The translations under genes were made by a program, and so were the position numbers. From positions 90,019 to 154,018 of IMG/VR virus record IMGVR_UViG_3300037245_001320: a DNA stretch of 64,000 nucleotides; one strand, given 5' to 3'. This document shows positions 53,751 through 63,790 of the stretch, piece by piece. The notes below the pieces were generated by a model that saw nothing but the letters and a program-made list of their open reading frames with translations, searched no databases and was not told where the DNA came from. The number at the start of each line of letters is the position of its first letter. The first letter of the stretch is position 1. This DNA is from a virus.

Positions 53751-54383
53751 TTATTTGATCGGATTCCTAAAAGAAGTTACTCTATCAAATCCGTGTTTTT
53801 CTGCTCTTTCAACATCTGTTAAAGTAGTTTCTTTATCTTCATCATTGTTTAAAGAAGATATATAAGTTTGTAATTCTATCCAAATTTCCTCTGGTGTAAA
53901 TAATGAAGTTAAGGAAGTTTCTTTTAGGATAGAATTTGCGTATGAGTCTAAATTAAAGAACTCTTCTCTTACTCCTACATCTTTAATATCCTGTCCAAAC
54001 TTTCCTGTTAGATCATCTCTGTTATTTCTTCTCTCCCATCTATAAAATGTTCTAGCTTTCCTGATAGATAAAGGAGTTGAATAATAGTGTTTGTTTTCTT
54101 TATATGTTTTTACTATTTCAAAATCACAAGAGTCAAATTGTGTAAGGTTATTAGCTTCATGTGTTTTTATATTAACTGCTTTTAACAATGTCTGTATAAA
54201 CCCATATTCTATTAGTATAAAAGAGTTATTTAATACTGATCTGTGATCTACCATGTTATATAAGTCTTCGTCTGCTATTACTGTTGATCCTCTTCTATCT
54301 AGTACTACTCTCTTATCTGTTCCATACATGTTTGGGGATGATAAGTAATCGTAATAATCTTTGTTTTTATCTATTATGTACAT
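53751..54383 (-). CDS. Unknown protein paired with DUF262-like gene, 210 aa
   Basis: Alpha/beta protein sharing one base with the DUF262-like gene upstream, so the two are probably translated together. Rich in Arg/Asn in the middle. No motif recognised. Confidence 0.6.
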   Translation of the reverse strand: MYIIDKNKDYYDYLSSPNMYGTDKRVVLDRRGSTVIADEDLYNMVDHRSVLNNSFILIEYGFIQTLLKAVNIKTHEANNLTQFDSCDFEIVKTYKENKHYYSTPLSIRKARTFYRWERRNNRDDLTGKFGQDIKDVGVREEFFNLDSYANSILKETSLTSLFTPEEIWIELQTYISSLNNDEDKETTLTDVERAEKHGFDRVTSFRNPIK

Positions 54384-55105
54384 TATGCTAGTTTCTCCTT
54401 TAACTCTCTTACTCTATCTAATTCTTCTTTTGTGTGAGGTGTACCACTTTGGTTAAGCTGTAAATACCATGTAAGTATTTCCTCTTCTGTTTGAAAATCT
54501 AATACATGTAATTTAAAAGAACACACTAAGTTTGGTAATCTATCAATATCATTATGATAGATAGTTTCAAATATAGGGAACTCATTCTTTAGGAAAGATA
54601 CAACAGCAGTTATTCGTTGTAAACCATCTATGCAGAACATAGTGTTCTCACCTGAGGTCTCTCTGTCCCAAGTAGGAGAATTGAAATAAATATCTTTTCC
54701 AATTTTTCCACCCTTCATAATGTGCTCTATATAAGATATTTGTTGTTCCTCAGACCACACTCTGTTTCTCTGGAAATAAGGATTAACGATTTCTTCGTAT
54801 GTTTGTCCTGTCTCATCTGCTCGATCTAAGATCCAAGGTTCTATTCTTTTCCACTCAGTATTAACTGCATATTCTCCACTAGGTGTTAAATACTTTGGTA
54901 GGTCTCCACCTGTTAATTTTCTAGTTATTGTTTCCATAATTTTACCATCTTCATCAGTAATAGTTATAGTTGTATAGGATTCGTATGGGAGGCTTACAGA
55001 TGAGGATCTTTTATAGCACTCAGAATAAGCACTGAATGTTCCTGTTTTTAATACTTTGTTTGTTTTATTGTCTGTCATTGCCCATGTATACGTTTTCTCT
55101 AGCAT
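54383..55105 (-). CDS. DUF262-like (ParB/Srx-fold) protein
   Basis: A 240-residue protein. NPYFQRNRVWSEEQQISYIEHI, then FCIDGLQRITAVVSFLKNEF is the classic DUF262 pattern, with QR and DGLQR residues forming the nucleotide-handling site of ParB-like NTPases. In GmrSD and related systems the domain is fused to an HNH nuclease; here it stands alone. It may bind DNA or hydrolyse NTP in anti-restriction or modification control. Confidence 0.75.
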   Translation of the reverse strand: MLEKTYTWAMTDNKTNKVLKTGTFSAYSECYKRSSSVSLPYESYTTITITDEDGKIMETITRKLTGGDLPKYLTPSGEYAVNTEWKRIEPWILDRADETGQTYEEIVNPYFQRNRVWSEEQQISYIEHIMKGGKIGKDIYFNSPTWDRETSGENTMFCIDGLQRITAVVSFLKNEFPIFETIYHNDIDRLPNLVCSFKLHVLDFQTEEEILTWYLQLNQSGTPHTKEELDRVRELKEKLA

Positions 55106-58512: not shown

Positions 58513-58658
58513 TTCTTATCCTCTAGGTGTATGATGATAGCATTTCCATCTTGTGAAACACTCTCTATCTCATGTCTTGATCCATCTGAGAGTTCTATCA
58601 GCATTCTGCTTCCGTCGTTTTGTTGCTTAATTCTCTCTGTTAATTCTTGTTTGTTCAA
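58509..58658 (-). CDS. Unknown small protein, 49 aa (TTG start)
   Basis: Begins at TTG 58658 with GGAG seven bases upstream and ends at TGA overlapping the DUF488 start. Sequence starts (M)NKQELTERIKQQND. No motif recognised. Confidence 0.6.
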   Translation of the reverse strand: MNKQELTERIKQQNDGSRMLIELSDGSRHEIESVSQDGNAIIIHLEDKK

Positions 58659-59580
58659 TGTTTTTCTCCTTTTTTATTTATTCTTTCAGATGCAATATTA
58701 AAGTAATTCTCATCCAACTCTATACCTATAAAAGCTCTATTTAGATTCTTACACGCAACTCCAGTTGAACCTGATCCCATTGTGAAATCTAATACTGTAT
58801 CGCCTTCATTGGTATATGTTTTGATTAGATACTCCATTAGTGCAACTGGTTTTTGTGTTGGGTGTACTGCTGATTTCTGCTTGTCTGTCTTAAACTTTAA
58901 TACTGTTCTAGGGTATCTTTCTGTAGAATCATACCCTGTTAAACCATGTTCACCATAAACATCTGTCTTAACGCTATTTCTTTTATGTTCTGCTGTACTT
59001 ACTTTTCTTTCATGCCCTGTAGTTTTTTGAGGATTATATAAACAAGGCTTTTTATAAAATACACTAATTATTTCATTTGCTTTCATAGGCATTTTCTTAG
59101 CATTTAAATGTCCTGTAGCTGTGGTCTTTTCCCAAATCCAATCATACTTAAACTCTTTTAGGTTGCTCATTCGTAAATTACTGGAGAAGGGTTCTGATCC
59201 AAATAATACAATAGGAGTTGTATCTTTTCTTATTTTCCTTAATTTATCCCATAAACCCTCGATGCAAAGTTCTTTAAACTCATCTCTGATTAGTTCATAT
59301 GAATCGTAACTTGTTGAGAGTCGGTGAAGGATATACTCATTTTCATACATTACAACTTCTTTTTTTCCTTTTAATACTTTTATATACTTATTGAAAGGAA
59401 TGATTGAATCCCATTTACAGGCTGTTGTTCCAGTCATCCGTATGGAGGATCACAAATAATAGAATCAACCTTGATGTTGTTAGAAATTAAATAATCCATA
59501 ACTTCTAAGCATTCATCATTGTATAGCTCTGCTTTGCAGTCTCCATACGAAATAACCTCCTTTTTATAGTCTTTATTCAT
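58655..59580 (-). pseudogene. DNA methyltransferase broken after DPPY
   Basis: The N-terminal part starts at 59580 (ATG overlapping the HNH stop) and reads 48 residues up to SIICDPPYG, where TGA ends it at 59434. The rest is in another frame from ATG 59437 to 58655 and contains the remaining motifs (IVLFGSEPFSS, DWIWEKTTATG, HPTQKP, DFTMGSGSTGVAC). One missing base in TACGGATGACT explains the split. The junction ATGA could let ribosomes restart, giving two chains. Intact, it would be a beta-type amino-methyltransferase. Confidence 0.8.
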
Positions 59581-60424: not shown

Positions 60425-61936
60425 TTAGTAATAAGCATCATACCCATGGTTTACTTCATCTCGCCATTCCTGTCCTGTATTGGGTTTCCACAATCTTATA
60501 TCTTCTTCAACATCAGGAATATGATCCCATGAATCAGAAGACCACCGTGCATCAAGATTGAATAACCCTATTCCATTATTGCTCAGAGTAATTAGTGCAC
60601 GGGAAGCATCGTAAGGAATCTCCCTATGAAAAGAAACATATTGTCTGTATACCCCTAAATTTTTCTCATTCGGTGTTTGCTCAAGTTTTATTATAAAATT
60701 GGCATCTTGCTCCTTGGAAATACTGGATGCGAGTACATTCTCCCTTGAGAGCTGCGAAGCTGTATGGGTATGTAAGTGTCTGTCTTGACTCATTTTCTTC
60801 AAAGATTTCCACTGATTACCTATTCTTATCCTCTCATCAGCCCTCTCATCTCCCTTGTTGGCCTTTAACAAATCAGCGTAGTCTATAATTACACATTTTA
60901 TATCTACTCCATCATTTGCTCTTATCTGGTCTAGGTGTGGGATGAGGTCATCTTCTATAGAACAACTCATTTGGGACCATTCTTTACAGTATAACTTTGC
61001 TGTTGGGTTAAACATTCCAAAAGCTTTCCATTTCTCCTCTAATTCCTCAGGTGTTTTTGGGTCTTTTTGTAATTTTTTAAATACTATCTCTGTTCCTTCT
61101 CCCTTGCCTTTAAACATGGGAACGACCCCTGATCCTCCGTCTACATATTCTCTCAATATTTCTGCATCTATTAATGATAGAAATGCGTCCTCTGACATCT
61201 CAAGTGAGGCTATGAACACAGTTAGACCGTTTCTTAGGGCTTGACAAGCAAACCATGCAAGCTCTCGGGTCTTCCCAACCTTAGCCCTGGCTGAGCTGGC
61301 AGAAAGATGGCGCTCACATATTGGCCCATATAGCTCTGAAAAAGGGTACGACATTTCAAAGAGCACATCATCCCTATCTTTTGTTCGTCTAAACCTAGAG
61401 AAATCTTTCATGCCATCTACGGGTGCTCCAGGGGCTTGTCTTATCTGGGCATAATTTGCTATTGTTGCTTTAGCCTTAGTAGTGTTCCCTGTTAGCATAT
61501 TCTTCTCTACAGAATTAACTAATTTTTTAACTCCTTGTTTATCTAAATACTCTTCCGCTATATCTAGTTCAAATTTAACATTTATATCCCCTTCTCCATC
61601 TGCATACTGTTGGCTTATTGAGGATAAAAAGTCATTAATATCTTTCGATGTTGTGACATTTAGTTTACTTCTAGCACTTTCGTAAACACCTATAACATCT
61701 TTTTTCATGGCTGTTCCATAGGCTTCGTAAAATGTTTTGTTCCATTGTAAGATAGTTCTACAGACAACACTTTCTATAAGACTCATATCTGCTAACAAAG
61801 GTTTTACACCCTTAATGAACTCAGTACTCATGATGCTGTTTATACACATCTTCCTCTCAATACTCACGTCCCCCACCGATTTCGTCTCCTCAACTAAATC
61901 TTCTATATTAAACTCTGGTTCTTCTATGTTGCTCAA
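60425..61936 (-). CDS. DnaB-type replicative helicase
   Basis: About 503 residues. The probable start is TTG 61936 (SNIEEPEFN follows), seven bases after AAGGAG; an ATG at 61960 is less well placed. The N-terminal part is helical. The RecA-like core has SARAKVGKTRELAW as Walker A region, VFIASLEMSEDAF, and VKCVIIDYADLL as Walker B, then HTASQLSRE, matching DnaB/gp41 motifs. It should unwind DNA at the fork with the polymerase at 43000. No primase gene is recognised in the window. Confidence 0.82.
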   Translation of the reverse strand: MSNIEEPEFNIEDLVEETKSVGDVSIERKMCINSIMSTEFIKGVKPLLADMSLIESVVCRTILQWNKTFYEAYGTAMKKDVIGVYESARSKLNVTTSKDINDFLSSISQQYADGEGDINVKFELDIAEEYLDKQGVKKLVNSVEKNMLTGNTTKAKATIANYAQIRQAPGAPVDGMKDFSRFRRTKDRDDVLFEMSYPFSELYGPICERHLSASSARAKVGKTRELAWFACQALRNGLTVFIASLEMSEDAFLSLIDAEILREYVDGGSGVVPMFKGKGEGTEIVFKKLQKDPKTPEELEEKWKAFGMFNPTAKLYCKEWSQMSCSIEDDLIPHLDQIRANDGVDIKCVIIDYADLLKANKGDERADERIRIGNQWKSLKKMSQDRHLHTHTASQLSRENVLASSISKEQDANFIIKLEQTPNEKNLGVYRQYVSFHREIPYDASRALITLSNNGIGLFNLDARWSSDSWDHIPDVEEDIRLWKPNTGQEWRDEVNHGYDAYY

Positions 61937-61940
61937 ATGT

Positions 61941-62153
61941 TTATCTCCTTCTCTTACCATGATAAATAGTGTGTAATATTGTTACATAATCCCCTACATC
62001 AGGATCGTTAGCTATTTCTACAATAAACCCTATTATGTCCTCTGCCACATAGTACTCTATCTTCTTCTTTAAATACAATCTAGTTGTTTGGTACATTTCT
62101 ACCCTTCGGGATTTCTTAATCCATGTTACTGTGTATGTGTGTAATTTCATCAT
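61941..62153 (-). CDS. Unknown protein, 70 aa
   Basis: Basic beta-rich protein with AAGGAG upstream and an ATG overlapping the preceding stop. No motif recognised. Confidence 0.55.
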   Translation of the reverse strand: MMKLHTYTVTWIKKSRRVEMYQTTRLYLKKKIEYYVAEDIIGFIVEIANDPDVGDYVTILHTIYHGKRRR

Positions 62154-62314
62154 ATCTCCTTCTCATACTCATCTAATCTATTTATTGCTTCCTTGTTAGT
62201 TTTATAATAAACAACTGCAAATCCCCATGTAGTATATTCACAGTTCTGCCAAAACAAGTTTTTCTTCTGTATGTGATATCCTTTTGAGGATTGTTTAATT
62301 CTGTATTGTATCAT
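62150..62314 (-). CDS. Unknown small protein, 54 aa
   Basis: ATG 62314 overlaps the macrodomain stop (ATGA) and the frame ends at TGA 62150. Basic with aromatics, beginning MIQYRIKQSSKGYHIQ. No motif recognised. Confidence 0.6.
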   Translation of the reverse strand: MIQYRIKQSSKGYHIQKKNLFWQNCEYTTWGFAVVYYKTNKEAINRLDEYEKEI

Positions 62315-62769
62315 CTAAACTCCACCGCTGTTATATTCAAATTAGGTGTTACTCGTTCTATAATACCTTTAATCTTTTCCCAATCTCCACCTGCATATCC
62401 TGAACCAATAAAAGGAATTCCCATCTTAGTTTGAGATAAAGTATCCCACTCATTTAATCTAGTGAACACTTTCTCTATTGCATCATAATCTACAGAAGAC
62501 TTTCCACCATACCTGTACTGAGTATAAGCATTGATAATAATTTGAGAATATTCTCTCTCGTATAAAATAACATGAGAACAATTACCTAATTTATTAATAT
62601 CACCCTTCTTGGTTTTCAAATCTGCTTTATATGCCTCTGGATATTGTTCTTTTATTTGTTTTGCTATTCCTGCTCCCATTGTATTAAAACAGTTACACCC
62701 ATGTATAATTGTATCAAATTGTTTTAATCTAAAATATTCTAGTAGGTTTCCTCTTATTGTTTCCATCAC
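62311..62769 (-). CDS. Macrodomain protein (ADP-ribose hydrolase-type)
   Basis: A 152-residue protein covering one whole macrodomain: IRGNLLEY, IIHGCNCFNTMGAGIAKQI (ligand Asn and Gly loop), then PFIGSGYAGGDW as the second ADP-ribose loop. It is closest in pattern to the Poa1p/DarG-like group. It likely removes ADP-ribose from proteins, nucleic acids or phosphate ends. The NADAR gene at 51911 and SLOG gene at 56457 point to a theme of ADP-ribose handling, possibly against host toxins. It overlaps the FliM/FliN-like gene by four bases. Confidence 0.88.
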   Translation of the reverse strand: MMETIRGNLLEYFRLKQFDTIIHGCNCFNTMGAGIAKQIKEQYPEAYKADLKTKKGDINKLGNCSHVILYEREYSQIIINAYTQYRYGGKSSVDYDAIEKVFTRLNEWDTLSQTKMGIPFIGSGYAGGDWEKIKGIIERVTPNLNITAVEFR

Positions 62770-63581
62770 TTAAATACCTCAACCAAGCGTACTCCAAACT
62801 TCTCATCAACTAATACCACTTCTCCTAGCCCAATCTGTTTTCCATCCACAAATACAGGGACAGCATCTCCGACATTCCTATCTAATTCTATAATCGAACC
62901 TTCTCCGAGTTCTCCTACATCACCTATACTTATCTCTGCTTTTCCTAGACTAGCTTCTATATTTGTTTTTATAGCATCTTTATCAAATTTCATATTATTC
63001 TCCTTTAATTCATTTTTGTGTAACCATTTACTTAATTCTTTAGCTGGTATACAGATAGTAAATAACCCCTCTAGTTCTTCAGAACATATCTCAAAAGTAA
63101 ATAAGCAAATCATCTCATGCCTTTCCTCATAAAATCTATATTCTGTGGTGTAATCTTTATGTCCTGCTGTACAACCTCCTAAATTAGGGAGGTTTTTGAA
63201 TAGATTATCTTGTGGTATGTCTGCTAAGTTCTTATCTAGTTCTATAATAATATACTTTAATCTATCATTAAGAGCGCGGTATACTCTAGAAACGGAAGGT
63301 ATACTTCTTGTGAACTCCTCATAGGTTAATTGATCTATAGAGCATAAGTTACATTGGTATTTTTCTCCTAAAAGCTCTTGTATCTCCATATGTATTAAGA
63401 ATGAGTATCTCTGGAAAATGTCATTTAGTTTTGTTAAATCTTTCTTGGTTAATATATCTGGTCTTTGAAAATCATATATTTTTATATTCTTTCTTTGTGT
63501 TACTTCTTGTTCTCCTGTATCTTCTTCTGATATTACAGTTAATAATTGATCTATGTCATCTTGACTTAATACTTCTGTCAT
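62766..63581 (-). CDS. Flagellar switch-like protein, FliM/FliN chimera
   Basis: A 271-residue protein. Residues 1-14 (EVLSQDDIDQLL) match the CheY-binding N-terminal peptide of FliM; KIYDFQRPD (35-42) and SIDQLTYEEFTRSIP (81-95) are further FliM hallmarks. Residues 96-190 resemble a shortened FliM middle domain, with an LGG near 134-136 where FliM has its FliG-binding loop. Residues 208-270 are a SpoA/FliN-type domain (GKAEISIGDVGELGEGSIIEL, GEVVLVDEKFGVRL). Domain order resembles FliM or FliY, but the C-terminus is FliN-like. AGGAAG precedes its ATG. It could enter the host C-ring and alter switching or sequester CheY. I know of no described phage system of this kind; that remains to be checked. 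Confidence 0.85.
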   Translation of the reverse strand: MTEVLSQDDIDQLLTVISEEDTGEQEVTQRKNIKIYDFQRPDILTKKDLTKLNDIFQRYSFLIHMEIQELLGEKYQCNLCSIDQLTYEEFTRSIPSVSRVYRALNDRLKYIIIELDKNLADIPQDNLFKNLPNLGGCTAGHKDYTTEYRFYEERHEMICLFTFEICSEELEGLFTICIPAKELSKWLHKNELKENNMKFDKDAIKTNIEASLGKAEISIGDVGELGEGSIIELDRNVGDAVPVFVDGKQIGLGEVVLVDEKFGVRLVEVFK

Positions 63582-63790
63582 TGTTCTTCCTCCACTAATT
63601 TTAAACTATCTTCAAATACCTCTACAGTATCTCCCCATTCATTTCCGAAGGGATCAGTCCATTTATGACTAATCATAATACTATCTGTCTTATCTGTCAC
63701 TCTTGGACCTTTTACCTCATCTCCTGAGAAGTAATGATCTCCATTCCATTTAACTCTACCTGTATATATTTCTTTAGTTATTTCTATCAT
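63578..63790 (-). CDS. Unknown beta-rich protein, 70 aa
   Basis: Small beta-rich protein with four-base overlap to the FliM/FliN-like gene. No motif recognised. Confidence 0.55.
   Translation of the reverse strand: MIEITKEIYTGRVKWNGDHYFSGDEVKGPRVTDKTDSIMISHKWTDPFGNEWGDTVEVFEDSLKLVEEEQ

Follow-up and report, generated by a model that had tools for sequence, protein, structure and literature searches.

Flagella serve phages as receptors, and a virus carrying parts of the direction switch would mean viral action on the rotor itself. One open reading frame in a virus record of 154,018 bases raises this prospect, as the initial annotation took it to encode a FliM head and a FliN-like tail in one chain shorter than cellular FliM, and to belong to the phage rather than to a host fragment. 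We asked whether this description holds, where the gene comes from, and what its product could do to a flagellar motor. The window analyzed here is a stretch of 64,000 nucleotides (positions 90019-154018 of the record), and its relevant features, in window coordinates, are as follows.

62766..63581, minus strand: FliM head/FliN tail chimera gene, 271 aa (ORF; Pfam FliM and FliMN_C; NCBIfam)
63531..63581, minus strand: CheY-binding peptide MTEVLSQDDIDQLLTVI, residues 1-17 (consensus match; CheY binding presumed from known FliM)
63012..63476, minus strand: FliM middle domain, shortened, residues 36-190 (Pfam FliM at 36-128; AlphaFold model)
63297..63341, minus strand: conserved FliM signature SIDQLTYEEFTRSIP, residues 81-95 (13 of 15 identical to consensus)
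63114..63200, minus strand: place of the GGxG loop, helix H1' and next strand of cellular FliM, residues 128-156 (no helix; DSSP, alignment)
62775..62972, minus strand: SpoA domain of FliN/FliY type, residues 204-269 (Pfam FliMN_C; tail HMMs; SpoA tree)
63589..63593, minus strand: ribosome-binding site GGAGG, 7 bases before the chimera ATG
63578..63790, minus strand: 70-aa ORF, next gene upstream, ATGA overlap (phrog_34664 only, E 0.01)
62311..62769, minus strand: macro-domain protein, next gene downstream, TGATG overlap (Pfam Macro 8.9e-7; phrog_335 1.8e-57)
60425..61960, minus strand: DnaB-like helicase in the same minus-strand block (phrog_19 7.4e-24)

Domain composition of the chimeric gene

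The gene forms one complete frame on the minus strand, from an ATG at 63581-63579 to a stop codon at 62768-62766, which bears out both its original coordinates and the remark that its product, at 271 residues, is shorter than cellular FliM (326-350 residues, n = 77). This cellular set comprises the 78 FliM sequences found, less the incomplete L031; the FliM pattern used missed L083 and L090 among 80 genome loci.

In the profile searches that had been proposed as a check, both Pfam families scored above their cut-offs, FliMN_C at residues 204-269 (E 2.5e-18, 66.2 bits) and FliM at residues 36-128 (E 1.3e-11), the latter covering profile positions 1-94 of 192 only. Among NCBIfam models, TIGR01397 (fliM_switch; E 8.5e-26, 90.8 bits) and TIGR02480 (fliN; E 3.8e-21, 74.8 bits) matched below their curated cut-offs of 219.6 and 84.05, and NF005995 (FliY) matched residues 204-269 only, with 65.3 bits against a cut-off of 218. 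With the Pfam profile half covered and TIGR01397 below its cut-off, the FliM middle domain is not recovered over its whole length. No PHROGs family was convincing for the chimera (best E 0.091), and no viral structure in BFVD matched it at E ≤ 0.001.

We then scored the two ends separately with our own HMMs, built from cellular genes for the heads and tails of FliM and FliY. The chimera head reached 84.9 bits with the FliM-head HMM vs 14.7 bits with the FliY-head HMM, and the tail 60.7 bits with the FliY-tail HMM vs 32.7 bits with the FliM-tail HMM; the best of 200 shuffled copies of the chimera reached 7.8 bits in any of the four. In a SpoA tree (67 rows, 113 columns, thinned to one in two FliY and one in three FliM), FliM tails occupy a separate branch (SH-aLRT 100, length 4.5) and the chimera groups elsewhere, with FliY and viral tails, in a topology that carries long-branch warnings and in which the chimera is among the long branches that meet. 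Judged by its sequence, the tail is thus a SpoA domain of FliN/FliY rather than FliM type.

Structure prediction of the chimera alone, another of the proposed checks, gave an AlphaFold model with a pLDDT of 80.5, based on 117 of 139 candidate alignment rows. Its middle domain matches the FliM fold (4gc8_B, VIA Z 18.9, rmsd 2.1, 147 aligned) and its tail matches the SpoA domain of H. pylori FliY (5xrw_C, Z 9.4). Because the alignment is rich in cellular FliM, the modeled fold leans on cellular FliM; a single-sequence control produced no usable model (pLDDT 33.6). Profiles, trees, and fold comparison together back the reading of a FliM head and a FliN-like tail in one chain.

Conservation along the chain is uneven. 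Relative to a consensus of 33 FliM rows from the spirochaete group (three of which derive from MAGs whose titles say only 'bacterium' and fall with Spirochaetota in the FliM-head tree), 15 of 17 positions are identical at residues 1-17 and 9 of 12 agree at residues 31-42, compared with 3 of 38 at residues 43-80 (helix H1 and strand 1) and 24 of 90 at residues 101-190. Within the N-terminal peptide, the part of FliM needed to hold CheY-P, LSQDDIDQLL satisfies the FliM pattern LSQxEIDxLL with D for E. Besides this peptide, the elements IKIYDFxRPD and DQLTYEEFxRSIP are strongly kept. The SpoA domain is kept less strongly, with 28 of 70 tail positions (201-270) equal to the FliY consensus and 17 of 70 equal to the FliM consensus.

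Some of the losses concern parts that FliM uses for contacts with other rotor subunits. GGxG, present in 76 of 77 cellular FliM (the single one without the exact motif being L095), is absent from the chimera; a run GGCTAG sits approximately six residues past the usual place and might serve instead. Helix H1' is absent between residues 128 and 156 of the AlphaFold model (by DSSP, in a region where pLDDT is partly low). The accessible text of PMC7355467 places the FliM GXXG/GGxG loop and the FliG EHPQR motif at the FliM-FliG interface, and the role of the FliM GGPG loop is treated in PMC4938800, as far as its accessible text goes. Residues N56, H63, D184, P185, and M187, given as FliM-FliM interface residues in Vibrio in the accessible part of PMC7505661, fall by our alignment into H1 and the H1'-strand region, two regions that have diverged or are gone in the chimera.

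Phage setting and origin

The surroundings of the chimera are those of a tailed phage. Downstream of it lie the macro-domain protein, two small frames, and the DnaB-like helicase; 419 bases separate its start from the end of the contig, which leaves two small ORFs visible upstream. Its GC content is 0.32 vs 0.334 for the window, and its third-position GC of 0.228 lies inside the range of four other genes in the record (0.203-0.328). Elsewhere, the record encodes a portal protein (phrog_145), major head protein (phrog_247), scaffold (phrog_206), tape measure (phrog_27166), tail fibre (phrog_31), DNA polymerase (phrog_17), a head morphogenesis protein, and a helicase. The scanned structural genes are on the plus strand, as are one ligase and one endonuclease, and the polymerase and helicases are on the minus strand, where the chimera sits within the block of replication genes. 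Overlaps on both sides, a ribosome-binding site, phage-like composition, and portal, capsid, and tail genes in the same record all uphold the original view of a phage gene.

The sheath family phrog_23 has no match in this record, and for this reason the phage is probably a siphovirus. As to near relatives, megablast of 24 kb returned only 192 bases of a methylase, from one Vibrio phage (two records); among named phages, the top matches listed for portal and capsid come from phages that infect Gram-negative bacteria, at ~28-36% identity, too distant to name a host. The outer 2 kb at the two contig ends have no 15-mer in common. FliG_C, flagellin, and Response_reg gave no match in the record, though a fliG gene could lie just past the contig end, 419 bases upstream of the chimera. 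We also observed an apparent DNA methylase in two overlapping frames (48 and 260 aa; window 58655-59580) split at its DPPYG motif, and a 240-aa protein (window 54383-55105) carrying a restriction-type GmrSD_N domain (Pfam E 8.6e-14).

The gene itself resembles spirochaete genes. A scan of genome contigs confirmed 575 relatives; among the best 80 of these, the 11 at the head of the list all come from Spirochaetota. In a set of 247 Spirochaetota genomes, 237 had a match. The phylogeny that had been suggested likewise places the chimera head closest to Spirochaetota FliM, its five nearest rows all being from this phylum, with the caveats that the chimera branch is long (4.1 changes per column), has an odd composition, joins a viral row at support 75, and carries a long-branch warning. 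Among the matches listed, the Spirochaetota frames span 322-433 aa and match the head, none being a short fusion, and the best cellular identities are 43% over ~128 residues for the head and 48% over 60 residues for the FliY tail.

Many spirochaete and Bacillota loci have fliY, with its FliN-type SpoA end, immediately after fliM, so the chimera may most simply have arisen by fusion of the two neighbors with loss of the middle. The spirochaete hint of the initial annotation therefore stands for the gene, to which Spirochaetota are nearest in both loci and tree. It found no such backing for the host, as the phage portal has matches in only 2 of 392 Spirochaetota genomes and does not name one. 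The host is nonetheless probably a spirochaete.

Switch genes in other viral contigs

A search for homologues in other phage genomes, also proposed at the outset, was run as five scans of viral contigs. The scan with the single protein returned no relatives (17 stretches). The other four, based on two FliM alignments, a FliN DNA pattern, and a FliG alignment, agree with one another: the FliM and FliN scans identify the same five IMG/VR contigs (G001-G005), which carry spirochaete-type FliM/FliN, and the FliG scan identifies three with FliG.

The organization of these genes varies. G001 (90 kb) carries fliM, fliN, and fliG as separate genes, with a FliN of 121 aa. G005 (329 kb) carries fliG and a FliM::FliN fusion of 431 or 465 aa, depending on which of two possible starts is used, along with genes for a flagellin (E 8.7e-42) and for a second, 88-aa FliN; one further frame is kinase-like and includes a receiver domain. 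G003 (39 kb) encodes a FliG with M and C domains, its N domain unmatched, and a 423-aa FliM::FliN fusion; in G002 (306 kb), fliM and a FliN-type tail occupy two frames that overlap; and G004 (33 kb) has a 334-aa FliM::FliN fusion. Because the G003 and G005 fusions are 53% identical over 424 residues, their sequences probably share one origin. FliM of Breznakiella homolactica is 66% identical to that of G001 over 338 residues and 73% identical to that of G005 over 264.

Several further observations concern individual records. The G001 FliG (L013:9366-10580) has a hydrophobic, membrane-anchor-like N-terminal stretch, judged by eye, before its FliG N, M, and C domains. In its 465-aa form, the G005 fusion opens with a second CheY-peptide-like stretch, VLDQDDIDDLV, before VLSAKEIDELL (L017:7899-8001). 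The G005 flagellin (L141:2493-3347, ~306492-307346 of the record) is full, with Flagellin_N (E 2.9e-40) and Flagellin_C (E 5.9e-24), and lies ~3 kb from the stand-alone 88-aa FliN and ~9 kb from a weakly terminase-like gene. The phrog_335 macro protein that adjoins the chimera also occurs in another viral contig (L015:15191-15637), ~6 kb from a fusion.

Counting the record of the chimera, a recognizable CheY peptide is present in all six viral copies (LSAKEIDELL in L017) and SpoA is kept in all six records. Response_reg is found in two of the six, one of them above the cut-off (a 705-aa frame), and flagellin in one. GGxG is present in viral FliM in 3 of 3 records with fliG and absent in 3 of 3 without detected fliG, chimera included, an association resting on six records that are all linear and possibly fragments.

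G001, G002, G004, and G005 have in common a frame of 706-753 aa (30-40% identity), whose G005 copy weakly resembles a terminase (phrog_2699, E 0.0017) and whose G002 copy does not, and the sheath family has matches in G001 and G002. The chimera's record has neither this frame nor a sheath match, and in the stretches compared with the other five it yields, besides the chimera, only weak ligase, methylase, and macro matches (26-31%). Given how little is shared, at least two phage lineages probably carry motor-switch genes, as judged from these comparisons. Besides the IMG/VR listing, fewer markers speak for the phage nature of G003 (DNA methylase, macro protein), G004 (ligase, shared frame), and G005 (HNH endonuclease, radical SAM protein, shared frame). 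When ORFs of four cellular fliM neighborhoods were compared with the surroundings of viral fliM and with the chimera's record, only switch genes matched, aside from two weak hits on the kinase/receiver gene in the 329-kb contig.

Named phages yielded no further case. Against 50,697 phage records, tblastn matched 6 records with the chimera, 7 with its G005 relative, and 5 with the G005 FliG, none of them convincing. The fliM of Microcystis phage MaAM05 is surrounded by annotated pomA, ompA, acdA, and fabI and resembles bacterial DNA; the Listeria records are short and without annotation, one being flagged UNVERIFIED; the Salmonella record has 1,461 bases and no annotation; and MT835480, also UNVERIFIED, holds FlgD-, FlgG-, MotA-, FliM-, FliY-, and CheY-like genes within 17 kb, like a bacterial flagellar operon. 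MW495066.1 and MT835480.1 are thus public 'phage' records that resemble bacterial DNA, with flagellar genes beside bacterial neighbors. In the accessible text of a termite-gut virome study (PMC5759034), an apparent report of FliG proved to be the word 'flight' in a reference.

Possible functions and known systems

What could such a protein do? The initial annotation suggested that it could join the C-ring, change or stop rotation, or titrate CheY-P. The parts of FliM and FliN that would hold CheY-P and pair through SpoA are kept and those that would signal to FliG are lost, which suggests a decoy or uncoupler. As far as sequence can tell, this anatomy fits a CheY-P-binding decoy or uncoupler better than a plain replacement of FliM, against which the missing FliG-docking motif and H1' helix argue. 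We therefore tentatively favor, at somewhat less than an even chance, a FliG-blind decoy that binds CheY-P, docks on the base of the host C-ring, and uncouples switching.

Under this proposal, a tailed phage, probably of a spirochaete, would carry a fliM head fused to the SpoA end of fliN/fliY. The N-terminal peptide would bind phosphorylated CheY, and the SpoA domain would pair with SpoA domains of FliM, FliN, or FliY at the host C-ring base, or with FliH. Because the middle domain would probably no longer dock on FliG or pack normally against FliM neighbors, the chimera would hold CheY-P with the signal not passed on. The infected cell would then lose switching and chemotactic control, its motor uncoupled or jammed, during infection. 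The T. maritima FliY middle domain, reported in the accessible text of PMC7355467 not to bind FliG, would provide a precedent for a SpoA protein without FliG docking.

Alternatively, the chimera could be built into the C-ring as a modified FliM/FliN subunit that still works, imposing one direction or a new bias. Its CheY peptide and SpoA domain are compatible with such a rotor replacement, as are the three viral records that pair FliG with FliM and FliN or with a FliM::FliN fusion, GGxG intact, one of which adds flagellin and a second FliN. However, the chimera has neither GGxG nor H1', its H1 has diverged, and its record has no FliG_C match. We consider this explanation unlikely here; it suits the FliG-bearing viral relatives better than the chimera.

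Two narrower roles, each of which we regard as improbable and to the same degree, would use one end of the protein. In one, the SpoA domain would act as a competitor for FliH and so shut down type III export of flagellar parts, which would spare resources for the phage, and the head would be a remnant. The FliN-type SpoA, agreeing with the FliY consensus at 28 of 70 positions, and the binding of FliH to the FliM-C/FliN dimer, described in the accessible text of PMC7355467, are consistent with this, but the 15 of 17 conserved positions of the CheY peptide would be left unexplained. In the other, the chimera would be a soluble protein whose sole action is to titrate CheY-P, with no contact with the C-ring; this would account for a CheY peptide in 6 of 6 viral copies and for the strongly diverged middle domain, but makes superfluous a SpoA domain that 6 of 6 viral records keep.

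Slightly less probable still is a captured gene that now serves elsewhere than in the motor or is on its way to being lost. The great length of its tree branch (4.1 changes per column) and the 24 of 90 consensus positions at residues 101-190 could be read in this way, yet the frame is intact, with a ribosome-binding site and overlaps with its neighbors, and its motifs are selectively conserved. Finally, a misassembly joining host DNA to a phage contig is suggested by the 419 bases that separate the chimera start from the contig end and can be set aside as highly improbable, given the overlaps with genes on both sides, overall and third-position GC in keeping with the window and the record (0.32 vs 0.334; 0.228 within 0.203-0.328), cellular identities of at best 43% (head, ~128 residues) and 48% (FliY tail, 60 residues) among the matches listed, and flagellar neighbor genes of which none tested matched in the record.

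A broader interpretation, possible but on balance doubtful, is that spirochaete phages took over the motor rotor in graded form and in at least two lineages independently, from near-complete rotor sets to the FliG-blind chimera. If true, the near-complete sets (FliG, FliM::FliN, spare FliN, flagellin) could rebuild or re-bias the host motor, the chimera would be a reduced form that intercepts CheY-P at the C-ring, and the motor switch would be a recurrent target of viral takeover. Because spirochaete flagella are periplasmic and propel the cell as a whole, control of the motor could influence both the movement of infected cells and the place where they lyse. Natural chimeras would also offer reduced C-ring proteins with which to dissect CheY-P binding, FliG docking, and SpoA pairing in switching.

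In the literature searched (titles and abstract openings of the papers listed, with few subscription papers and no preprints), we found no phage-encoded FliM, FliN, or FliG. The nearest known case within that literature appears to be the flagellin-remodelling prophages with TldR and FliC-P, which are enterobacterial and act by RNA-guided repression, and whose FliC-P flagellins the accessible text of PMC13418256 calls the first known prophage-encoded example. Like the chimera, they are a flagellar part supplied by a phage, with a change in motility that is known there and proposed here; unlike it, they supply the filament protein, and the accessible text of PMC13418256 holds neither FliM nor FliG.

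Among motor proteins, the chimera is like FliM in its CheY peptide, linker IKIYDFxRP, DQLTYEEFxRSIP, first half of the middle domain, and, in the predicted model, fold. It differs from FliM in lacking GGxG and, in the model, H1', in its FliN/FliY-type SpoA domain, and in its length of 271 vs 326-350 aa. With FliN it shares the SpoA domain (TIGR02480, E 3.8e-21; 36-43% identity to T. maritima FliN in the fold alignment), whereas FliN is small (121 aa in viral G001) and has no FliM head. FliY, found in spirochaetes, Bacillota, and Thermotoga, consists of a CheY-binding peptide, a CheC-like middle, and a FliN SpoA domain. The chimera has the same order of parts (CheY peptide, CheC/FliM-type middle, FliN-type SpoA), but its head is of FliM type (84.9 vs 14.7 bits) and it has 271 residues, compared with 333-490 in the cellular FliY collected. 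Finally, the FliM(SpoA)::FliN proteins of PDB entries 4yxb and 4yxc, matched by both sequence and fold, likewise join FliM and FliN parts; unlike the viral chimera, they are, by their titles, laboratory constructs, which include the FliM SpoA domain and leave out the FliM head.
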